DNA from: Saccoglossus kowalevskii
Lineage: Eukaryota; Hemichordata; Enteropneusta; Harrimaniidae
Length of the DNA: 27,385 nt
Reading direction: 5' to 3'
Assembly: GCF_000003605.2 (NCBI RefSeq)
Contig: NW_003108597.1
Span: 12,238-39,622, forward strand
In this document: piece after piece, positions 566 to 25,899 of the stretch
Layout of the letters: every line of letters starts with the position of its first letter
Position numbering within the stretch: the stretch's first letter is position 1
Position numbers and translations under genes: made by a program
Notes under the pieces: generated by a model
Seen by the model: only the letters and a program-made list of their open reading frames with translations
Told to the model about the DNA's origin: nothing
Databases searched by the model: none

Positions 566-3500
566 GTAATTTCGTATTTCCATTTTTTGCGGCATTAGAC
601 GCAAGGTAGTAAGGATGTTATAAATAAACTTGTTTTTTTTTTTCAGGAGATGTACACATATCACTAGTCCCTACAGAAACAGTACGGGATTCCGGCATTG
701 GAGATGATGTCACGAAAGAGAACCAAGGCACTACTAGAAGTAACGAAGAGGACGAAAACCAAATATCGCATCCACGCAAGCACGTAGTTAATGACCAATC
801 GCGAGATTCGGGGATACAACATCTCAGAAACATATCAGAAGAACATATAAGAAGCAGTGGAAAAGAAAAGGACACCAGTAAACAAGAATTAGAATTCCCA
901 ATATGTGGTAAATAGAATACCAAGTTTACTTACAATACATCACAACTTATTTTTTTTTCAATTCTGCATTCAAAGCTAACTAAATTTTTATCTTATGCTT
1001 AGGGAGCAAAAATTACGGGGACCCACACGACAAAAATAGAGACTACGTGAAAGATGTACACGCACAAAGAGCAGTAGTCATCGACCAGACTGCTACTTCG
1101 GTAAATCGCGATAGCGGCTATTTCGGGAAAAGCTCGGCATCTCACAAAGGAAAAAAGTTAGGTCGACGAAGCTGCTCAATTCGATTGAAGCATGACGCTC
1201 GTCCCACGAGAAGACGCCGCGGCAAGAGATCTTCTAGCACTGCGAAGAGCTGTGCTGACAGTATTGAATATGACAGTAAACAAAACAGCCCCAAACACAG
1301 CGACGGTGAATACGAGGACGTATTTGAAGAAGAGAGTCAAAAACTACACGAACCTATCGGTGCAACATCTTCGCTGTCAAGTCTTTGCCAAGGTACACAG
1401 TAATGTTGTTATTATTTCTTTATTTCACATTATAAATCTTTGTGTGTTCCTGGGCATGTGAATACAGAACAGCAGTCTAATGATTTGTGTTTCATATTTT
1501 CAGCTGACTTTCCGCTATACTTGATGAAACTATACGAAGACCGGATTATCGAAAAAGAAGACATGTCTCGTATAAGGTCCGTGAACGAGCTCAGTATGAA
1601 AGTGTCCATCCTCGCAGAGATGTTTGAACAAAAAGGAATAATCTGCACAACACACAACGCAACTTTAAAAGAATTCAAATCATTATCAATGCGACCATTA
1701 ATTGACCCTCTTCGTCGAAATTTAACTAAACTCATTGACGATCTGGAGGCAAAATATATTACTGACCGGTTAATCGCCGCAGGAGTCATTTCCGGTAGCG
1801 CTTATGACAGTGTTATGTCGAGACGAACGCGACGTGAGCAGGCCGAAGAACTTCTTATCTACCAACTGCCACCAACACAAAAAGCCTACGTGATATTCAA
1901 AGACTCGTTGAAGGAAAATTATTACCATTTGTGGGAACTCTTGGACGAGTGTGAAAAGAAAGGTGTCCCCAAACAAGACTTAATATGTAAGTATAATTGC
2001 ATTCTGTTATTTCATCCATTCAAATTGTACAAACCATATATAAATCCTGATCATTAACACGGTAATTAAATATGGAAAATGCATCACGTTGTCATTTTTT
2101 TCTTATAAATCATAGTATCTTTAATATCCCAGGTCAAACTACGGCGGGGCCGGATGCCAAAGACCCAACTACGAAAACGTACGAACTTTCAGGTAACTGA
2201 ACTAAACCTAGCTCTTTACACATTTTTGTTGTGCCTACGTGGATATTTATGTTGAAAAACTTGCTCTGTAAAGTACTCAATTAATACAATGGCATTAAAC
2301 TTTTACCCACCTTGTTCAGTTAATTTAGATTTACGAGGCAAACTTGACGAGAAAACCAAATCAACAATAGAACACTTTCTTGCTCACAAACTTCGTGAAA
2401 TCACCAAATCATTTGATGTCCTGGGCGAACATTCAGCCGCAGTCGTAGACGTTCACTTTGCGTGTATATTATTGCACTTACAAGTGTCTGGTGAGCATGG
2501 AGTGAAAACATTACTTCGTGATAGTAGGAATGGGAAATTGGAGGAATTATTCACCAAACTACTAATTACAGACGATGTGAAGGAAATGGCCGGCGACAAC
2601 GACATCATTGTCAAAGTGACGATTACAGACTCTGAATTTCAGCGAATTTCCAGTGAATTGGGCGAAGACAGTGAAGAGCTCGACGGTGGGCCGGACTCGA
2701 ATGATACTGTTGGCAAACCACAGAAGTTTCGTGAACGGCATAATACATTTAAAGGTATGGTATCTCAGCAATACATCTAGTCAACATACATATTCGATTT
2801 TGTTTACGTCCTTATAATCTAATAGTTACCGTTTTAGTAGACCACATCACAGATCAATATGAAATTCACATATATGATGTTCCTAGAAATGTATAACAAA
2901 TCTTAGTTTTCTTTGTTTTAGATTTTCCAGCCGTAGACTGTTTTGAAATAGTCAACATTTCCCACAACTCCATCAGTGTTCGTTTTTCGACGTCTTTGGT
3001 CGACCATACTGCGTTTCGTGTTACGTGCATACGATGTGACAACAACCGTTCTGGAATAACCGAATTCGTGAAACCAAATATGAATTCATGGACATTCAGT
3101 GGATTACACGCGGGAACACATCGACTGTCCGTATCGCTTTTGTGCGGTGACCGTGAAAACGCTATTTCGGGTCCTCTATCAACTAAACTAGCTAAGATTC
3201 GTGAGTATATTTACTTGGGACTTTAGGACGTATAGAAATGCTCACTAATTATTTGGACTTGAATCGCAAGCAGACTTTGATCGGGGTTTTAAAAATGCGT
3301 CAATCGAAACCAGTGTGAATTTATCGCCAATATTTCGTTTATGCCAACAAAATCGCATATATTTCAATTACTGGCGATGGGTCTCTGTTCAAAATTACTT
3401 CAAGCTGTTTAAATATATTGCCAGCAAATGAAACAACCTCAAACCTAAGTCCAAACACTGTATTTATTTAACTATAGATTCCAGATCACGCACGATGCTG

Positions 3501-5545
3501 ACCCGATTCCGGTCACTGAAATCACGGGTTCGCCAGAAGTCGTCCCATAAGCCATTGCCAAACATTGCCAGATCAGACGACCTGCCAGGTGAGCATAGTG
3601 GTGCGATGTACAAATGATAACACTGAGACCGTAGATGAATGTGATGTAAATGTGTTCAAATTTAACTTAAGGGCGGTGGTCGTCGCGCAGCTTGTGAATA
3701 GACCATTTTCCGTTCACTGCGAGATCTCGCGTTATGCGTGAAATCCAACGTAAAACAGGACAAACAAAGGTCATAGCGTCGTAGTGGCGACAAACATCGC
3801 AAGGGATTCGACAAACGATCGCCCTTTCGATGTGAGATACGAAATAAAATAATTCGATTTCAAAATCAAATCGTTCAATTTTTGCGGCAGCCGTTCGGCG
3901 CGCTTCTTTCACGCAGCTCGCGAGATCTCACAGTTGAACGCAAAATCGGACCTATTTGATGTAAACAAACAACGAATTTTACACGCGTTGTGTACGTCGC
4001 TATTAGTCCCATATTGAACAGGACGCGGCACGACGACAACCGCCCTTTAAAAATGCAATTCGAACGAGAATATGTATTTTTGAATATTGTTGCTCGATAC
4101 TTGATGAATACATTGGACTAGGACTTATCATAACCTGAAAACGGCGTCATTGTAGCACACATATGAGTATTCGTTCGATGAAGCAATGACATACTCAAAT
4201 ACTCGTGTGCACTGGTTGTTTTTGAACGTACAATAGCAATTACTGCACATGCGTATTAGTGGTTATGATCTTTCATCTAACGAATACTGATGTGTATGTG
4301 TTTTCGTCCATATTGCATTTTTAATGCAATCATTACGCGCCTTATACAAACATACAATATACTTATAATCACGTATAACCTGTTTTTGCTATAGATAGTG
4401 GTGTATATACAGATGAGAATAACGAAGCGATCGGCGACAGTAATGTGAATATAAGTGATTCCAAATTGCGCGTGGAAAATAAAACGGACGAAATGTCAGC
4501 AAACGCAAAGATTAACACCGCAGCCACTACTCTGCTCCCCAAGCCACGCCTTTCGAGATCGTGTAGCCGCAGTAAGTCGTTCCGTCAACCACGAAAACGT
4601 TCTAACGCAGTGAGTGGGAAAAGACCCGTGATAGCGAGAAGAGCTCCAAACGACGGAGTCACAACCGTTGTATCAAATTCAAAACCTGTTAGCAATATTG
4701 TAGAAGATGACTCGCTGTGCTCCAAAAATGGTTAGTATTTTTCATAAGTCGGAAGCCGTCACAGTTTCCTTTGAGATAGATCTGGAAACCTCTTTCTCAG
4801 TTCACCTGAAAGCCTCTCCCACAGAAAACTGTGAGGGCTCCCACCTCCCAACAAAAATTTACGCACATTTATGTACTCTCCATAATAGTTATACATCGAT
4901 GAGCAGGGATATATTTGGTATCATCCTCGAAAACTACTGTAATTATATCCTTTTATTCAGTTTCCTCGCTCTTGTTGTGATGACCGGTAAAGGAATCATT
5001 TTATTCATTTCGATAATCTAAAATCTGTTTGTGCTTTATCCACATACAAGTATTTTAGAACGAGTGTTCAAGCGACTCCAGAGTTCAATTAAAAAAGATA
5101 TATAAATCATATAAGCTTATGATGAAACTACCTACGTTCATTGACCAACATACGCAGACAGTGAAAATGATAGCAGCTTTAAAAAATCCATTTGTTATAT
5201 TTTTGCATTAAATGGTATTTTTAAGATTTCACAGAGCCAAATTTGGGTGCAGGATGTGTTTACCCATAGCTGGCGAAATCATGAACCAAATGTATTGCAC
5301 ACAGTGAATTTTAATGAGGAAAATTATTTTTTTTCTCCCGTCTTTCCCCCATTCGTTCGTTATACCATAACTTCTATCAATATATTGCAGATTCGAAGAT
5401 AACAGCTGGTGCCGGTGTTTCTCTTCCATCACATACCAATAATGAAGACTTAACCAACTGCCACATGAAATCAGCGATTGTGATTCAACGACAACAGGAT
5501 ACTAACCACAAGGGGAGAGACAGCGGTATTTTTGACGAAGAATAG
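511..5545 (+). CDS. Multi-exon death-fold adaptor: DED-like/CARD, TRADD-N-like, FN3, DSG motifs
   Basis: Spliced gene with confident coding exons 647-907, 1003-1392, 1504-1986, 2133-2192, 2320-2754, 2922-3200, 3478-3588, 4395-4730 and 5391-5545, and a tentative first exon 511-565. All introns are GT-AG and phase 1. With the tentative start the product is about 854 residues. Order: acidic/basic disordered N-terminus with three R-D-S-G motifs, DED-like helices plus CARD, short linker, TRADD-N-like domain, FN3 domain, basic Ser/Arg-rich exons, and a C-terminus ending R-D-S-G-I-F-D-E-E. No signal peptide or membrane segment is visible in the confident exons, so a cytosolic signalling adaptor is inferred. 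CARD, DED and TRADD-N are known homotypic or TRAF-type interaction modules in NF-kB and cell-death pathways. I do not recognise an orthologue, and this domain order is unfamiliar. The true start may lie upstream of the window. Confidence 0.82.
647..907 (+). CDS. Exon: disordered N-terminal region with two RDSGI motifs
   Basis: The acceptor is a poly-T tract ending TTTCAG (641-646); the donor GTAAAT is at 908. The exon is 261 bases, phase 1-1. It is rich in Asp, Glu, Asn, Ser and Arg, with no hydrophobic core, so disorder is predicted. It carries R-D-S-G-I-G-D-D (685-708) and R-D-S-G-I-Q-H-L (802-825). The stretch GGGATTCCGG at 687-696 recurs in the second exon of the downstream ZU5-UPA-Death gene, suggesting related exons. 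Confidence 0.8.
1003..1392 (+). CDS. Exon: RDSGYF motif and Arg/Ser-rich basic segment
   Basis: The acceptor AG is at 1001-1002 and the donor GTACAC at 1393. The exon is 390 bases, phase 1-1. It encodes R-D-S-G-Y-F-G-K-S (1107-1133), then clusters of basic residues (G-R-R-S-C-S and R-R-R-R-G-K-R-S-S-S) that could act as nuclear localisation or phosphorylation sites, then an acidic stretch E-Y-E-D-V-F-E-E-E before the linker to the death-fold exon. No globular domain is recognised. Confidence 0.8.
1504..1986 (+). CDS. Exon: DED-like helices followed by a CARD
   Basis: The acceptor TTTTCAG ends at 1503; the donor is a consensus GTAAGT at 1987. The exon is 161 codons, phase 1-1. From about 1701 to 1960 the sequence fits a CARD: L-R-R-N opening helix, L-I-D-D-L, an I-T-D-R-L-I-A-A-G-V-I turn, then T-R-R-E-Q-A-E-E-L-L and a final F-K-D-S-L / L-W-E-L-L helix. 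Upstream (about 1510-1700), K-L-Y-E-D-R-I-I, R-I-R-S-V-N-E-L, E-M-F-E-Q-K-G-I-I and L-K-E-F-K-S-L resemble helices 3-6 of a death effector domain. The CARD call is firm; the DED call is weaker, and that part could be an atypical or truncated death fold. Such modules assemble homotypically with caspases, adaptors or receptors. Confidence 0.8.
2133..2192 (+). CDS. Short linker exon
   Basis: A 60-base phase 1-1 exon between AG at 2131-2132 and GTAACT at 2193. It encodes 20 mostly polar residues (T, K, D, G, P) and joins in frame the CARD exon to the TRADD-N-like exon. No motif is recognised. Its support is the phase match and the absence of stops, so it could be optional. Confidence 0.6.
2320..2754 (+). 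CDS. Exon: TRADD-N-like domain
   Basis: The acceptor is taken as TTTTACCCACCTTGTTCAG ending at 2319, because it has a good pyrimidine tract and restores phase 1; an ATG at 2289 is then intronic. The donor GTATGG is at 2755; 435 bases, phase 1-1. The core (about 2445-2660) has V-V-D-V-H-F, a helix ending S-R-N-G-K-L-E-E-L, L-L-I-T-D-D-V-K-E-M, V-K-V-T-I-T-D-S-E-F. This is the pattern I associate with TRADD-N-like domains of invertebrate NLR and death-domain proteins. A long amphipathic helix precedes the core and an acidic tail follows. The domain call rests on pattern memory and needs a profile search. Confidence 0.72.
2922..3200 (+). CDS. Exon: fibronectin type III domain
   Basis: The acceptor TTTTAG ends at 2921 (a second in-phase CCAG lies 9 bases on at 2930); the donor GTGAGT is at 3201. 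The exon is 93 codons, phase 1-1, the classical FN3 single-exon unit. Features: N-S-I-S-V-R-F-S (B strand, F replacing the usual W), F-R-V-T-C-I-R-C (C strand), W-T-F-S-G-L-H-A-G-T-H-R-L-S-V-S-L (E-F region, matching the G-L-x-P-G-T-x-Y-x-V-x-V signature with changes) and a final G-P-L-S-T. FN3 in an apparently cytosolic CARD protein is unusual. Confidence 0.72.
3478..3588 (+). CDS. Exon: short basic S-R-S-R segment
   Basis: The acceptor AG is at 3476-3477 and the donor GTGAGC at 3589; 111 bases, phase 1-1. It encodes 37 residues rich in Arg, Lys and Ser, beginning H-S-R-S-R-T and containing S-L-K-S-R-V-R-Q-K. An exon of the neighbouring ZU5-UPA-Death gene (13411-13614) also begins D-S-R-S-R-S, so the two may be related. 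Confidence 0.65.
3667..4050. mobile_element. MITE-like element with TTAA flanks inside an intron
   Basis: Terminal inverted repeats: 3671-3689 begins GGGCGGTGGTCGTCG, and 4028-4046 read on the minus strand begins AGGGCGGTTGTCGTCG. Both ends are flanked by TTAA (3667-3670 and 4047-4050). Length is about 376 bases. The interior has two GAGATCTC palindromes and no transposase. TTAA duplications are typical of piggyBac-type transposons, so a non-autonomous element of that type is inferred. It fills nearly half of the 806-base intron 3589-4394; the rest holds only weak imperfect palindromes around 4155-4300. Confidence 0.7.
4395..4730 (+). CDS. Exon: DSGVYT motif plus Arg/Ser-rich region
   Basis: The acceptor CTATAG ends at 4394 and the donor GTTAGT is at 4731; 336 bases, phase 1-1. 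The exon opens directly with D-S-G-V-Y-T-D-E (4395-4417), a D-S-G-x-x-T variant of the phosphodegron consensus. It continues as a low-complexity polar region with R-L-S-R-S-C-S-R-S-K-S, then R-K-R-S and K-R-P basic clusters. Disorder is predicted. Confidence 0.75.
4731..5390 (+). other. Intron of 660 bases without recognised elements
   Basis: The phase-1 intron before the terminal exon. An open frame running to 5021 overlaps it, but it is out of frame with the exon and ends in an AT-rich hydrophobic stretch, so it is taken as chance. No RNA gene or clear repeat is seen. Confidence 0.5.
5391..5545 (+). CDS. Terminal exon ending RDSGIFDEE
   Basis: The acceptor ATATTGCAG ends at 5390, phase 1. 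Fifty codons lead to TAG at 5543-5545. The last nine residues are R-D-S-G-I-F-D-E-E, with acidic residues where other D-S-G motifs have phospho-acceptors. A possible donor at 5526 inside the motif would splice in phase to a candidate exon at 6465, but retention of the D-S-G-I motif favours termination here. Confidence 0.72.
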
Positions 5546-9643: not shown

Positions 9644-9665
9644 ATGAATGGCGGAGAAAAGCCAG
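9644..9665 (+). CDS. Tiny first coding exon (M-N-G-G-E-K-P)
   Basis: ATG at 9644 has A at -3 and encodes seven residues plus one base. It ends at donor GTAAAT (9666), phase 1, exactly matching the phase-1 acceptor at 10472/10473. The spliced reading is M-N-G-G-E-K-P-E-M-R-D-S-G-I. The alternative start at 9622 gives phase 2 and fails. The ATG at 10475 within the next exon is another possible start if this exon is not used. Confidence 0.55.
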
Positions 9666-12600
9666 GTAAATATGTTATATAAAACACATAACATTGTTAT
9701 TTCGGAGAACTACGCTTACTATACCCGTGATATTTGGGGGAGTTAAAATCAATATTTTTAGACACACAAAGTTTGTCCGAAATTCAGTTTACATAATATC
9801 ATTTGTCATTAACAGACACAGTCGTGCATAGTGCAGTCGTTTCAATTGGCCATTAATACATTCATTTATTCTATTCACTTTTCTGGTATTCTGTTGGCGA
9901 CAAGACTTAATATTGTCGAGTTTATCAAATACTTGTTTTGTTAAACGACATTTTCATGACAATTTTCACATGACAAAAATACAGACGTTTTTTTCCTTAT
10001 CCAATTTCCTTATTTACCTGTCACACATAGAAATATACATAACAATGGCTTCACAATGGATATTGTTGATCACCTCCCCCAACGGCCCGTATAAGCACCG
10101 TGGCAGCGTGAAAAAGGTGCCGTGTGATGGCGCCAGTCTAACTCTGATACTTTAAAATACTTTATTTTCGCTTGGGTTAAATTATCGCTATATTCGCTGA
10201 AGGGACGATTCAGTGAAAATAAAACCTAGCGAATATGTTCTTTTTACTATATTTTACATTCAACTTATCAAAGATCAGTGAAAATAAATTCCATACAAAA
10301 CAGCCAGCGAAAATGAATTCCTGCTAAAATAAATTAATTTCCAGTAACTGAGTTTTTGGTGTGTTTCTACAGCCCTATCACAGGATGTGTATTATCATAG
10401 CGTACGTATGTAACGTATAGAAGGACAATGGACCAATACTGTGTTTTCATTATCAATTCATTTACTCTCCAGAAATGAGGGATTCCGGTATTGTATACGA
10501 CGAGATCACCGGGGAATGCAATCCTCCTACAACGATAGGTAATATGACTACAAGAAAACAGACTAGCGACTTTGTCGATGGGGGCATAGAAATGGACGAA
10601 GATGATAATCTTGATAAATATACTGATAATACATTGACTATAGATCCAACGGATAACTTTCAAAGACATACAAATAAACACACCATATCTCTGTCACACA
10701 ATTGTGAAAATACCAGGCAGAATAAGGATTATGGATATGTTCAGTTTGGTCCACCACTCCGTACAACATGCAGTGAACGGATGGCGCAAGATGATGGAAT
10801 GGACCTGGATCGAGGCGGTTTTGTAAACCCTACATATGGTAGGCGTACGACATATTTTGAGTGTATCTTCATGAAATATCGTATGATGTGATGTGGTTTG
10901 GTGTGGTTTCTGTAATGATAAGATTTATAATATAGTGGCATTATTTGGATTATTACTCGATTGAACAAATTACATCACGCATGAAAGTACAGAAGTACGT
11001 ATACTTGGACGTATGATACCTATTTTGGCATAACAGTTTCCACTATTTCACGTTCGAGAGACTACGTTTATCTATATTCTGACATTTTATACACGCAATC
11101 AAATGACATATTTTCAAGGCGATGTTGTATTTGTGTATTCTTTAATGTTTAATGTTTTTTTTTAAAAATATATGGGCGTATCTTTTACAGAATGCGTGCC
11201 GGCATTAACACGCGCACGAGATAGTTTCAATCAGATCATAGCACCTGGTCAGACTGACGGAGGCATGCAGAAAAAACACCAGTTCGGTGGAAGCACAACT
11301 CGGACAATAGACGCAGATTCCAGAAAAAGAAAATATCCATACCCCATTGACGAGCGTCAAGTTCAAGGATTTCCAGATTTTCATCAATCTAAATCACATA
11401 ATCACACATCGGCAATGTTTGACCACAGAGGAGGCATTCTAAAGCTAAATCACAGTGGTGTTAAGGTGTACATACCCCCTGGTGCTATACCTGAAGGCAA
11501 AGAACAGCCGATATTCCTGTACCTAGCAGAGGAAGACAGATATCGACCATCACCCACCAATAGCGCTTCAAATTCCACAATAGTATTTTGTGGTCCACAT
11601 GGACTAATCTTTCAAGAAAATGTATTTGTGACTATACCACACGGTGCTGGCTATGACAGAGATGAATGGAAATTTCAAACATTAATTACCCCAACTGATG
11701 TGCATGAAAATCCGCGCTATCAGAGTGCTGATCATGACGTTTTGGCGATCACTGATGAATCTATAACTTTCATGGTGGACCATTTTACGGGATTTGGAAC
11801 CAAAGTGGAGCCGAAGAGCGAAGGTGCAATGAACGAAGTGAGCGACGCAGAAGTTGTCACACAATATGTACGATTCAAGCCATATATCCAACGCAGTGGA
11901 AATGCTATTAAAATACGAATACGTGGACTTCTTCCCGACTACATGGAGGTGAGTATATAATTATATCGTTTAATAATTATGGAAATATGCCGCGTTTAGG
12001 CAACACCTCGAATAAACAGTAACTCATAACATTTTACAATGTAGCATTGCGAACAAGAGGAGAAGCAACTAAGAGGGAAGCTTGCAGATGCGACTAAAAT
12101 GCTGCTTTTACATGGTAACCATGGAGATATGAAAGTCAACATAACGAATATGAGTGAAGGATGGACGATAATGAATGGAAGTGGCTCTCAACTGGTAACG
12201 TATTCATGGTGATTTTGGTTAACTTACGGAGAATCGTATCAAAAACCACAAACTAGATAGATATATTGTAGCATGCAAAACTATCATTCAATAAGAAGTG
12301 TTTTGAGTTATAGATTTTATTTTGTGACATATGTATTTGTTTCGAAAAAAAAACGAATTATTGTTCTATTGAATGCTTATATCAACGTAATATCAATAAG
12401 AAACTGTTAAAAAAAAACAATGTGTACTTTTGTTCTATTATAACAGATGTCCCACAGTAAGCTTCAACACAGCCACGACTGTGCTACATTTGTATTGCAA
12501 TTGTGCCAGCCATGTGACTCTCAATTCAGCTGTTGTGTTCATGTGAAACAGATGGGTGTTTCAGAAAGCACGGACTCAGTAAGTTTCAATATATCAGAAC

Positions 12601-13873
12601 CTCTCGGACCTGACAGTGAGGTGAGTTAAAATAGGCCATGATACAACCATTACCTATTATTGCTAACTATTTTTGGTGTAGACAACTTGAAACAAATAAA
12701 TAAAGAAAATTTACATTTTTAGGAATCTGGTCTCGATTGCAATGTCCTCGACGCCCCATTACCAGCGCATATTGAGACTAAAATATGCCAGAAATTAGAC
12801 GAAGAAAACCCACTAGGAAACGGACAGGATTGGAGAATGTTTGCAGAAGAAGAAAACCTATCTATGTCGACAATACAGCATCTCCAACACCAGAAGCAAT
12901 ATGGGAAGAGTCCAACAAGGGCAGTACTCGGAGGATGGATACAACGACATGAACATATTGGCCAACACGAACTTTTGAACCTTGTCGGTATTTTCAGGAA
13001 AATCCGTAGAATTGATGTTGCCGGTTTATTAGACAAACATATACGTGCTAGATATAGTGTAAGAAGAGGCGATGACACACATGGAATACTGTCGGATACT
13101 GCTGGTAACATATCCTTGACAGAAGTGGAATCAAGTGAACAAAGCGAAGACGTGGGACCAGCAGAAGCATTTAAAGATGAAGAGCGTGACCAGGTTCCAC
13201 CGCCCAGACAAATAGAGCGCACGAGTTTTAATCGAAAGGCATTGAGAAAAAAGAGTGTTGAGCGGACAAGTAAAACAGTAACTCATCAAGGTAAATGTTT
13301 TTAGGGTACGATTTTTAAGATTTTCTCTAGCAGACGTACACTAACATTACATTTTCGGAATTGCCCAGTTCTTCATACTGTTTTGTGTGTTTTGTTTGAT
13401 GTTTTTTCAGATAGTCGAAGTAGATCCATACAATCTGATGCCATTGCTTGTTCTGAAAAGAAACTCCCCGGAGCGTATGACAAGCTTGAATATAGTGATA
13501 GTTGTAAGGTGTCATCGAAAGATGATATAAATGCTGAAATGGATGACGTCAAACGCAGAAGTCGCCGCAGAAGAGTCAGCATAGACCAATTAGATGGCAT
13601 AAAAGATCCTACAGGTTAGTTGTCAAAGAATATTCTGGATCTGGATCATTGAATAGATATGACTTATATGTTGGCAGAGATGTATAATGTGAAAATGTAT
13701 TTTCTGTATGTTTTATTGTTCTATCATATCATTATAAAGTAACGAATATGTTGATATCATTTCCAGGGCAACAAAATATTCCAGACTCCGGATTTTTCTC
13801 CGTTTGTTCAAATACGTTTGACGATGACGATTCCATTCCGATGTTAAAGAGCTCGGACGTGATTGATGATTGA
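9644..13873 (+). CDS. ZU5-UPA-Death domain protein (UNC5/UNC5CL-like), DSG motifs at both ends
   Basis: Eight coding exons (9644-9665, 10473-10838, 11191-11948, 12045-12194, 12447-12620, 12723-13290, 13411-13614, 13767-13873) sum to 2349 bases, exactly 782 residues plus stop. Domains: disordered residues 1-200 with R-D-S-G-I at 10-14 and N-P-T-Y at 126-129; ZU5 about 206-332; UPA about 351-485; Death about 503-593; basic Ser/Arg tail; D-S-G-F-F-S at 754-759. The ZU5-UPA-Death module is that of UNC5 receptors, PIDD and UNC5CL. Here there is no signal peptide, Ig, TSP1 or membrane segment, so an intracellular adaptor closer in architecture to UNC5CL is inferred, perhaps acting in NF-kB or death signalling. 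It lies 4.1 kb downstream of the CARD/TRADD-N gene on the same strand. Confidence 0.88.
9666..10472 (+). other. First intron (807 bases) with short A-G-C-G-A-A-A-A-T type repeats
   Basis: About 10158-10330 contains several copies of a word like CAGTGAAAATAAA/CAGCGAAAATGAA (near 10213, 10276, 10303) and inverted relatives (ATTTTCGCT near 10165). This suggests a small degenerate repeat element. The rest shows nothing recognisable. Confidence 0.45.
10473..10838 (+). CDS. Exon: RDSGI motif, acidic region, NPTY motif
   Basis: The acceptor TTTACTCTCCAG ends at 10472 and the donor GTAGGC is at 10839; 366 bases, phase 1-1. It begins E-M-R-D-S-G-I-V-Y-D-E (10478-10504), is followed by a polar, acidic, probably disordered stretch (M-D-E-D-D-N-L-D), and ends G-G-F-V-N-P-T-Y. 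N-P-x-Y with an upstream aromatic residue is a known PTB-domain or endocytic adaptor signal. Confidence 0.82.
10839..11190 (+). other. Intron of 352 bases
   Basis: AT-rich phase-1 intron ending TCTTTTACAG at 11181-11190. No repeat, RNA gene or extra exon is seen. Confidence 0.6.
11191..11948 (+). CDS. Exon: ZU5 domain and start of UPA
   Basis: The acceptor TTTTACAG ends at 11190 and the donor GTGAGT is at 11949; phase 1 in, phase 0 out. From 11418 the sequence is a typical ZU5 start: F-D-H-R-G-G-I-L-K-L, V-K-V-Y-I-P-P-G-A-I-P-E-G. A G-P-H-G-L-I-F-Q-E-N-V-F-V-T-I-P-H strand pair and D-H-F-T-G-F-G-T (11778-11801) follow. H-F-T lies where PIDD and UNC5CL carry the H-F-S autoproteolysis signature. 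The UPA opening V-T-Q-Y-V-R-F-K-P begins near 11853. Confidence 0.9.
12045..12194 (+). CDS. Exon: middle of UPA domain
   Basis: The acceptor ATGTAG ends at 12044 and the donor GTAACG is at 12195; 150 bases, phase 0-0. It encodes the Glu-rich helix E-Q-E-E-K-Q-L-R-G-K-L, then M-L-L-L-H-G and D-M-K-V-N-I and G-W, which match the UPA pattern of UNC5 and PIDD. Confidence 0.85.
12447..12620 (+). CDS. Exon: end of UPA domain
   Basis: The acceptor ATTATAACAG ends at 12446 and the donor GTGAGT is at 12621; 174 bases, phase 0-0. It encodes C-A-T-F-V-L-Q-L-C-Q-P, the F-x-L strand that ends UPA domains, then a Ser-rich linker to the Death domain. Confidence 0.8.
12723..13290 (+). CDS. Exon: Death domain
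   Basis: The acceptor ACATTTTTAG ends at 12722 and the donor GTAAAT is at 13291; phase 0 in, phase 1 out. The Death domain spans residues about 503-593: L-P-A-H-I-E-T-K-I-C-Q-K-L, the conserved D-W-R-M-F-A-E-E (W527), S-P-T-R-A-V-L-G-G-W (like S-P-T-x-x-L-L-x-x-W of UNC5) and L-L-N-L-V-G-I-F-R-K-I. It opens with E-S-G-L-D, a degenerate form of the D-S-G motif. An acidic then basic tail follows. Confidence 0.88.
13411..13614 (+). CDS. Exon: Ser/Arg-rich tail with R-R-R-R-V-S
   Basis: The acceptor GTTTTTTCAG ends at 13410 and the donor GTTAGT is at 13615; 204 bases, phase 1-1. It begins D-S-R-S-R-S, contains K-L-E-Y-S-D-S-C, and ends with K-R-R-S-R-R-R-R-V-S-I-D-Q, a potential basophilic-kinase site (R-R-x-S) and nuclear localisation signal. 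Confidence 0.8.
13767..13873 (+). CDS. Terminal exon with D-S-G-F-F-S
   Basis: The acceptor ATTTCCAG ends at 13766, phase 1; TGA is at 13871-13873. It encodes I-P-D-S-G-F-F-S-V (D-S-G-F-F-S at 13784-13801), an exact D-S-G-hydrophobic-x-S match to the beta-TrCP phosphodegron form, then an acidic D-D-D-D patch and S-S-D-V-I-D-D at the end. Confidence 0.8.
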
Positions 13874-24427: not shown

Positions 24428-24488
24428 ATGGACATTGGAAACAAAGTTGATTTCACCGTTAATTTCACTGTTTTATTGGCTCTCTATT
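24428..24488 (+). CDS. Tentative first exon of the third gene
   Basis: ATG at 24428 opens 20 codons, the last part hydrophobic (F-T-V-L-L-A-L-Y), and ends at GTACGT (24489), phase 1. This matches the acceptor at 24563 across a 75-base pyrimidine-rich intron. The hydrophobic segment is too short for a confident signal peptide. Only phase and spacing support it. Confidence 0.25.
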
Positions 24489-24563
24489 GTACGTACGTAT
24501 TGTTTTGATTTGTCTCATGTTTTGGTTTCATATAATGTATTCTTTTTGATATTTATTGCGTAG

Positions 24564-24884
24564 ATCCTCAATTGAAGTGTCTTCATCGAGGAATGGATAG
24601 ACTGAAAACAAATACGGTACTCCCACATGTTGGTAACAAGCGCGTCATGAAACTAGACTCTCGTGTTGTAACGGACGGTGGCGATATTGACATGTGGGCT
24701 GATCAAATATCTTTGAATGCACCTACTGATTCAGATGAGGAAGACATGACAACTATTGGTCGTTCACTCAGCCTAGTATCAATTGAATCCACAGTAAAGG
24801 AGGCTGTGCAACGTGGTGGAGAAGAGTACAACACTTTGGAGATTGATAATGAGGACTCTGCCACTCACAGAGACGCAAGAAATG
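24564..24884 (+). CDS. Exon of a third gene, acidic Ser-rich, unknown family
   Basis: The acceptor TTGCGTAG ends at 24563 and the donor is a consensus GTATGT at 24885. The exon is 321 bases, phase 1-1, with no stops. It encodes 107 residues with D-S-D-E-E-D-M, I-G-R-S-L-S-L-V-S-I-E-S and E-E-Y-N-T-L-E-I-D-N-E-D. No domain is recognised. It shares phase 1-1 symmetry and polar, acidic, Ser-rich composition with the disordered exons of the two upstream genes, and may belong to a third family member that continues beyond the window. No convincing downstream exon was found before 27385. Confidence 0.5.
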
Positions 24885-25899
24885 GTATGTTAATTGAATT
24901 TACAAAATGTATCTGTGATGTGGACATTCTAAATTACCAAACTTGTTACTTGCTAACAACCTATACATCACCTGGAAGAACGAATATATATGAACGAATA
25001 CGGTAGTCCAATACGAATGTTTGTCTAAGGGATCACCTGATGGCCAATTTCGCTAGTTAACGGGCGAGGGGAAGCCTGTCAAATAAACGTATGAAAAAAG
25101 TGTATATAGAAATAATATTGGTTGGGTACAGGTAAATAATTTTTCGTAGGAAAGCTATAATAATCCGTTCTACTGACCAACTTAAATCAAGGTACAACTG
25201 CATCCTAATTATCTTGAAAAAGCCACATAAACTGGAAAAAGCCATATTCAAACTTATCCTGGCAATCCTGCGTGATTGCGAGGGATGCATATGCCCAGTA
25301 GACCAGGCAAATGTGAACCAAAACATATGTGGCTTACTCATTTTTGGGATAACTGTTTTAAAAATCTTAGTGTTCTCGCTATATTCCGATAGATTTTGCA
25401 ATTTCTAATTATCTCAACCTTACCACGCTAACGCACGAGACTCGTCTCGCCGCAGACCGGCACTTAATCATGTAAATTTACTGTTGATATGCGTGGAGAC
25501 CGCGGATAGATCTGGCCCACATTTCAGTTAACTGTTGTCAATGTGTCTCTTTAACCGTAAATACATCGATATGGTTTTGTCACACCGATTAATTTGATGA
25601 CAAAACTAGTTTACACAGAAAATTTCATGTATGTATCTTTTGCTAAATGGATATGTCACAAGCGATGTGAGAGTGGGAATGCTTTATGGGTGTTGCATTA
25701 CATCAGTCTAATTATAGCAATGACACAACATTGTTTTCAGTTCCTTGACCTTTGCATAAGGACAGCCATTACGCAGGGAAATTGAAACCATGGTTACAAG
25801 GACGTGAAAGTGGGCGCACGCAAACTGAGGTCATGCAAAATAAAGCATGTAGGTCAGCTGTGACGAGTGCTGATTAGTTGGCAATTTACTAAGTGTACT
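24885..25899. other. Probable intron or intergenic sequence
   Basis: No phase-1 exon with good splice sites was found. Open frames here (25057-25401 minus, 25594-25785 plus) have low-complexity or hydrophobic composition. Confidence 0.4.

Follow-up and report, generated by a model that had tools for sequence, protein, structure and literature searches.

A candidate intracellular adaptor gene of Saccoglossus kowalevskii combining CARD, TRADD-N-type and fibronectin type III domains

Large expansions of proteins that join a death-fold domain (usually a DED) to a TRADD-N domain and to variable partners, including the UPA-ZU5 module, are described for marine invertebrates in the main text of Kaur et al. 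2021 (PMC8195603). A single-copy TRADD-N located between two globular domains is a pattern reported there, as is a tiny-Ser motif of TRADD-N in which Cys is an occasional substitute for Ser. The gene analysed here most resembles the invertebrate proteins of the DEDD2/NCOA6 clade in that text (PMC8195603): as in these, a death-fold domain is predicted to be N-terminal to one TRADD-N-type domain that lies between two globular domains and carries the tiny-Ser/Cys motif. The usual death-fold of that clade is, however, a DED, while in this gene it is a CARD, with a fibronectin type III (FN3) domain as the C-terminal partner. Vertebrate DEDD2, a nucleolar protein with a DED and a TRADD-N, likewise has the death-fold first and the TRADD-N next, but in the gene studied here a CARD replaces the DED, and an FN3 domain and long flanks bearing DSG motifs are present in addition. 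Basic tracts, which can direct a protein to the nucleus, are a further likeness to DEDD2. TRADD shares with this gene a TRADD-N-type domain and a death-fold partner, but the order is reversed. An orthologue of TRADD was considered and rejected, there being no match to the Death profile in eight of the nine exons (all except one of 20 residues).

The original prediction for this locus stated that no described protein is known to have this domain order. None of the matches listed in a literature search, which did not extend to the architecture tables of Kaur et al., was a CARD-TRADD-N-FN3 protein. The main text of that paper (PMC8195603), tables apart, contains none of the words fibronectin, FN3 and FNIII. 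Amphioxus provides a precedent for novel death-fold combinations (PMC2575513), in a paper whose main text contains no FN3, fibronectin or TRADD. The claim of an undescribed order is thus upheld among the listed matches, but the class to which the gene belongs, death-fold plus TRADD-N with variable partners, is a described one. Since such adaptors, diversified in marine invertebrates, are already on record, we conclude that CARD-TRADD-N-FN3 is a new combination inside a known class of mix-and-match adaptors, a variant and not a new class.

The window, by which we mean the whole stretch of 27,385 nucleotides that was analysed, contains nine exons of the gene (Table 1), which run on the + strand from 647 to a stop codon at 5545 and encode at least 836 residues. 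The 5' end lies outside the window, and residue 1 of the 836 is a stand-in, as part of its codon belongs to an exon beyond the window edge. The joining of the exons into one polypeptide was read from genomic phase, reading frame and splice signals alone. The original prediction had placed four successive phase-compatible exons at 1504..3200. These exons proved to be correct: their lengths are divisible by three, both ends of each are in phase 1, each is bounded by AG and GT signals, and the predicted junctions (1986/2133, 2192/2320 and 2754/2922) are exact. The span, however, covers only the middle of a larger gene, with two exons before it and three after it in the window. A membrane segment had been predicted to be absent. 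The usual threshold for a membrane helix is a 19-residue Kyte-Doolittle mean of 1.6, and the highest such mean in the part of the protein within the window, which excludes its 5' end, is 1.52, in agreement with the prediction. Pfam profiles were scanned against eight of the nine exons, the 20-residue exon being left out, and revealed no domains in the flanking exons. An NCBIfam search with the three domain exons returned nothing up to E 1. Genome searches were conducted in the animal's own assembly (572 Mb).

Table 1. Exons of the candidate adaptor gene and the neighbouring gene in the window
Feature	Coordinates	Strand	Evidence
Phase 1-1 linker exon; RDSGI motif twice (DSGI 688-699 and 805-816)	647..907	+	Splice signals, frame, motif positions; no Pfam match
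Phase 1-1 linker exon; DSGY (1110-1121), basic tract ARPTRRRRGKRS (1197-1232)	1003..1392	+	Splice signals, frame; no Pfam match
Phase 1-1 exon; CARD (1707-1943) preceded by a partial CARD-like half (about 1503-1706)	1504..1986	+	PF00619; homologue elsewhere on the contig
Phase 1-1 linker exon of 20 residues	2133..2192	+	Splice signals, frame
Phase 1-1 exon; TRADD-N-type domain with core at 2418-2669 and Ala-Cys at 2460-2465	2320..2754	+	Sub-cut-off PF20694, alignment, hhalign
Exon, phase 1-1; fibronectin type III domain	2922..3200	+	Sub-cut-off fn3 alone; family profile
Exon, phase 1-1; basic Arg/Ser-rich segment	3478..3588	+	Splice signals, frame
Exon, phase 1-1; DSGVYT created at the exon junction, basic tract 4565-4600	4395..4730	+	Splice signals, frame
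Final exon; ends RDSGIFDEE-stop (DSGI 5519-5530)	5391..5545	+	Splice signals, frame
Separate neighbouring gene, 8-exon model, 782 residues, ZU5-UPA-death domain; DSGI near N terminus (10481), DSGFFS near C terminus (13784)	9644..13873	+	Gene model, Pfam

The CARD is the most clearly recognised domain. As had been predicted, the profile search with PF00619 (cut-off 23.9 bits) matched the exon at 1504-1986 with 57.2 bits (E 1.7e-15), over amino acids 69-147 and profile positions 3-82 of 85, i.e., the whole domain length. The closest solved CARDs, found with a two-sequence profile made of this exon and a paralogous one, were those of BIRC2 (cIAP1; E 3.2e-6) and Apaf-1. Ten shuffled controls were computed from the three domain regions (four from the TRADD-N exon and three from each of the other two), and none matched CARD, TRADD-like_N or fn3. 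CARD matches in the whole genome are not many (at least 13); viral and prokaryotic collections, queried with the CARD exon only, yielded no relatives.

DED-like helices had been predicted ahead of the CARD, and this part of the prediction failed. The DED profile (PF01335) did not match residues 1-68 of the exon up to E 10, either in the gene or in its paralogue, though the same search detected a DED at 49 bits in another locus of the same genome (L014), which served as a positive control. What was found instead is a weak match to CARD positions 22-60 (13.1 bits, E 0.1, below the cut-off), without helix 1, and a stronger one in the corresponding half of the paralogue (positions 20-59; 21.4 bits, E 0.00025, also below 23.9). 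In the PDB, the two-sequence profile of this half reached the CARDs of ICEBERG and caspase-1 at E 0.17-0.27 only. An internal duplication of the CARD was tried by direct comparison of the two halves and rejected: the local score was 19.0 versus a shuffle mean of 23.2, and 1816 of 2000 shuffles scored as high. Since the halves have no direct similarity to each other, the case for a partial CARD is made by the profile matches only. We read the 68 residues as a partial, degenerate CARD; with the DED reading corrected in this way, the gene would couple to CARD partners and not to DED caspases.

The exon at 2320-2754 had been predicted to encode a TRADD-N-like domain. TRADD-like_N (PF20694, cut-off 23.7 bits) is its sole Pfam match up to E 10, at 17.5 bits (E 0.0037) for the whole exon and 18.6 bits (E 0.0017) for the trimmed one, both below the threshold. 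A genome-wide search with PF20694 gave six matches at E 1 or better, two of them over the cut-off, and the window exon was not among the six; the control set of this search produced one sub-threshold match, in an archaeon. One gene of the genome, at 42.4 bits with this profile, is NCOA6-like, a name given by eye from its poly-Gln sequence (L015). When the exon was used as a protein query against its own genome, it found itself and five others: C4182 at E 2.1e-5 and C4614 at E 0.0028, as well as three weak matches with E values of 0.055, 0.10 and 0.20. C4614 (locus L011) was also found by the PF20694 genome search (20.5 bits, below the cut-off), and in the weakest relative, L014 (E 0.20), the Pfam DED exon lies directly upstream of the TRADD-N-type exon. 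PF20694 applied to four other relatives gave no match in L010 and L012, and sub-threshold matches in L011 and L013. Aligned with hhalign, the five relatives matched the window exon at 97.1% (E 6e-11), which is not an independent result because they were found with that exon. They also matched L016 at 79.3% (E 1.5e-5); this sequence was found by PF20694 only and is over the Pfam cut-off (27.2 bits).

The Ala-Cys of the window exon aligns with Gly-Cys in L010, L011 and L013 and with Gly-Ser in L016, i.e., in four of six relatives, and the same columns hold Ser-Ile in L012 and Ser-Thr in L014; the position of the tiny-Ser/Cys motif in the beta2-beta3 turn is taken from this alignment and not from a structure. 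Compared with the PDB, a profile of seven sequences did not hit TRADD, and the best matches were MICAL1 and keratin (E 0.02-0.04). AlphaFold2 single-sequence models had pLDDT values of 46.8 and 43.1, too low for either to be usable; the second, that of the TRADD-N exon, was all helix and not the RRM-like alpha/beta sandwich of TRADD-N. The prediction is supported insofar as TRADD-N is the only Pfam family matched and the relatives lead to the Pfam-confirmed L016, but the exon itself scores below the cut-off and is missing from the genome-wide list. On the whole, we regard a TRADD-N domain here as probable. In L011, an exon about 1 kb downstream of the TRADD-N-type exon possibly encodes an NTPase P-loop (GADGSGKT; Pfam AAA_22 at E 0.11 only), an arrangement reminiscent of TRADD-N/STAND fusions.

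The FN3 assignment is likewise carried by relatives. Alone, the exon at 2922-3200 matched only fn3 (PF00041) up to E 10, at 15.8 bits (E 0.017) against a cut-off of 25 bits. A genome search with it pointed to four additional places: a row of three at C303:48473-49946 and a single one at C350. In this five-exon family, four members have fn3 scores under the cut-off and the fifth (C303:49689, L023) has no match, but a profile of the five exons, from which the FN3 of the paralogue (L005), itself passing Pfam, was left out, matched fibronectin among solved structures at E 1.4e-19. The predicted FN3 domain is therefore borne out at the level of the family and not by the single sequence. At the C350 locus (L030), a TIR exon (49.5 bits) lies about 1 kb upstream of the related FN3 exon, within one 3.2-kb locus.

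The contig carries a paralogous locus at a distance of about 45 kb. An exon at C303:58712 is a homologue of the CARD exon, with 27% identity and the same Ala-Asp-Phe start, and a reverse search with it recovers the window exon at E 0.034. Its donor is in phase 1, as is the acceptor of an FN3 exon about 370 bases downstream, whose score (37.4 bits) is over the Pfam cut-off. The paralogue (L005, L023) thus has the same exon of partial CARD plus CARD, in phase 1 and followed by FN3, but no TRADD-N exon was seen between them. CARD-FN3 therefore appears to exist with and without TRADD-N, and the paralogue, missing one module, offers a natural comparison. An FN3 domain outside a secretory context had been called odd; it is less so here, since one related FN3 exon adjoins a CARD exon and another lies at a distance of about 1 kb from a TIR exon. 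These cases suggest that FN3 occurs repeatedly next to death-fold and TIR domains in an invertebrate. Ahead of the paralogous CARD exon, a 188-residue exon (L023 7582-8145) is weakly SEFIR-like (hhalign 29%); for SEFIR, it had no Pfam match over the cut-off and no PDB support.

A DSG-hydrophobic motif occurs five times in the gene (688, 805, 1110, 4394 and 5519), a number reached in 0 of 20,000 shuffles, to be read with the caveat that the motif was picked after the sequence was seen. Together with the neighbouring gene the count is seven, five being RDSG, and the sites are in linkers and near termini. In a six-frame scan of the window, seven of eight DSG[ILVFY] sites fell inside exons of these two genes or at exon edges. 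A scan of five other loci (L005, L022, L023, L024 and L030) added a single DSG-hydrophobic site, which lies in a short L023 frame. The beta-TrCP degron has the form DSGxxS/T in the source consulted (PMC7862229), and this strict form is found at one of five sites in the adaptor gene (DSGVYT) and one of two in its neighbour (DSGFFS); the motifs are possible beta-TrCP-like degrons. The neighbour matched ZU5 with 80.2 bits and Death with 39.1 bits; its UPA score was 21.4 bits, short of the cut-off of 27. Similarity between the two genes beyond the DSG motif was looked for and dismissed, no alignment being significant (best E 0.20).

These data can be read in other ways. The gene might encode a CARD-FN3 adaptor in which exon 2320-2754 is an extra insert, a lineage-specific domain and not TRADD-N. 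Such an insert would fit the sub-threshold PF20694 score and the exon's absence from the genome-wide list, the failure to match TRADD in the PDB, the low-confidence helical model, the motif being out of register in two of six relatives, and the paralogue, where no such exon separates CARD from FN3. It fits poorly with PF20694 being the only Pfam match of the exon and matching none of its four shuffles, with the bridge to L016, a Pfam-confirmed TRADD-like_N, with the alignment of the motif in the other four relatives, and with the classical pairing of DED and TRADD-N in the weak relative L014. We consider an insert of this kind improbable, and to much the same degree as a larger receptor or effector, of which the exons seen would be the recruiting tail, while a 5' part beyond the window carries a sensor, a TIR or SEFIR domain or an enzyme. 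Coding sequence must exist upstream, since the first window exon starts mid-codon, and related exons are found near a TIR exon (L030), near the possible NTPase exon (L011) and, in the paralogue, behind the weakly SEFIR-like exon that lacks a Pfam SEFIR match. However, the model of the neighbouring gene has a first coding exon of only seven codons before its DSGI exon, and therefore a short 5' end is equally possible for the adaptor gene. It is very improbable that the exons are only apparently joined and come from separate genes or from a decayed pseudogene: while the joining was taken from genomic sequence, nine phase-compatible exons follow one another with consensus splice sites and no internal stop, and a paralogue as diverged as this one keeps both the order, CARD before FN3, and the phase.

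The sequence supports an intracellular CARD/TRADD-N/FN3 adaptor, and the full reading that we prefer (a rough probability of 0.6) is that of a cytosolic or nuclear adaptor for immunity or cell death, of the death-fold plus TRADD-N class, which arose by phase 1 exon shuffling. In such an adaptor the CARD, which follows the degenerate partial CARD, would, by analogy with its family, recruit CARD partners homotypically. The TRADD-N-type domain may act as a bridge or a switch between CARD and FN3, as in the model of Kaur et al. (PMC8195603, main text), and the FN3, one of a few related FN3 exons that the genome contains, would be a non-homotypic protein-binding module. The original prediction saw the protein as a scaffold between CARD/DED filaments and TRAF-type signalling, a proposal that is conjectural in its TRAF part. 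The long flanks, with their basic tracts and five DSG-hydrophobic motifs, probably control location and turnover; judging from the motif, turnover could proceed, for example, via phosphorylation and SCF-beta-TrCP. An origin by phase 1 exon shuffling is probable because, in the paralogue on the contig, this CARD exon recurs and leads in phase into FN3 with no TRADD-N in between, which suggests that exon shuffling added FN3 to CARD and TRADD-N in one gene.

A wider proposal, speculative and on balance unlikely, is that the contig holds a local signalling module marked by FN3, in which the CARD-TRADD-N-FN3 and CARD-FN3 adaptors, three more FN3 exons, the ZU5-UPA-death protein and a SEFIR receptor evolved together. 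FN3, found near TIR as well, would then serve immune adaptors of invertebrates as a pairing domain inside the cell that has so far gone unrecognised, and DSG degrons would destroy the adaptors after signalling.

Two further observations concern the surroundings of the gene. A possible third gene, noted by eye at about 24428-24890 of the window, consists of a hydrophobic stretch started by ATG and an acidic phase 1 exon (DPQLKCLHRGMDRL...), and it matched no Pfam family over its cut-off. On the contig of the CARD-FN3 genes, C303:99416 (L037) encodes a SEFIR receptor (75.8 bits), with EGF-like and membrane segments recognised by eye; with this one included, four SEFIR matches in the genome exceed the cut-off.
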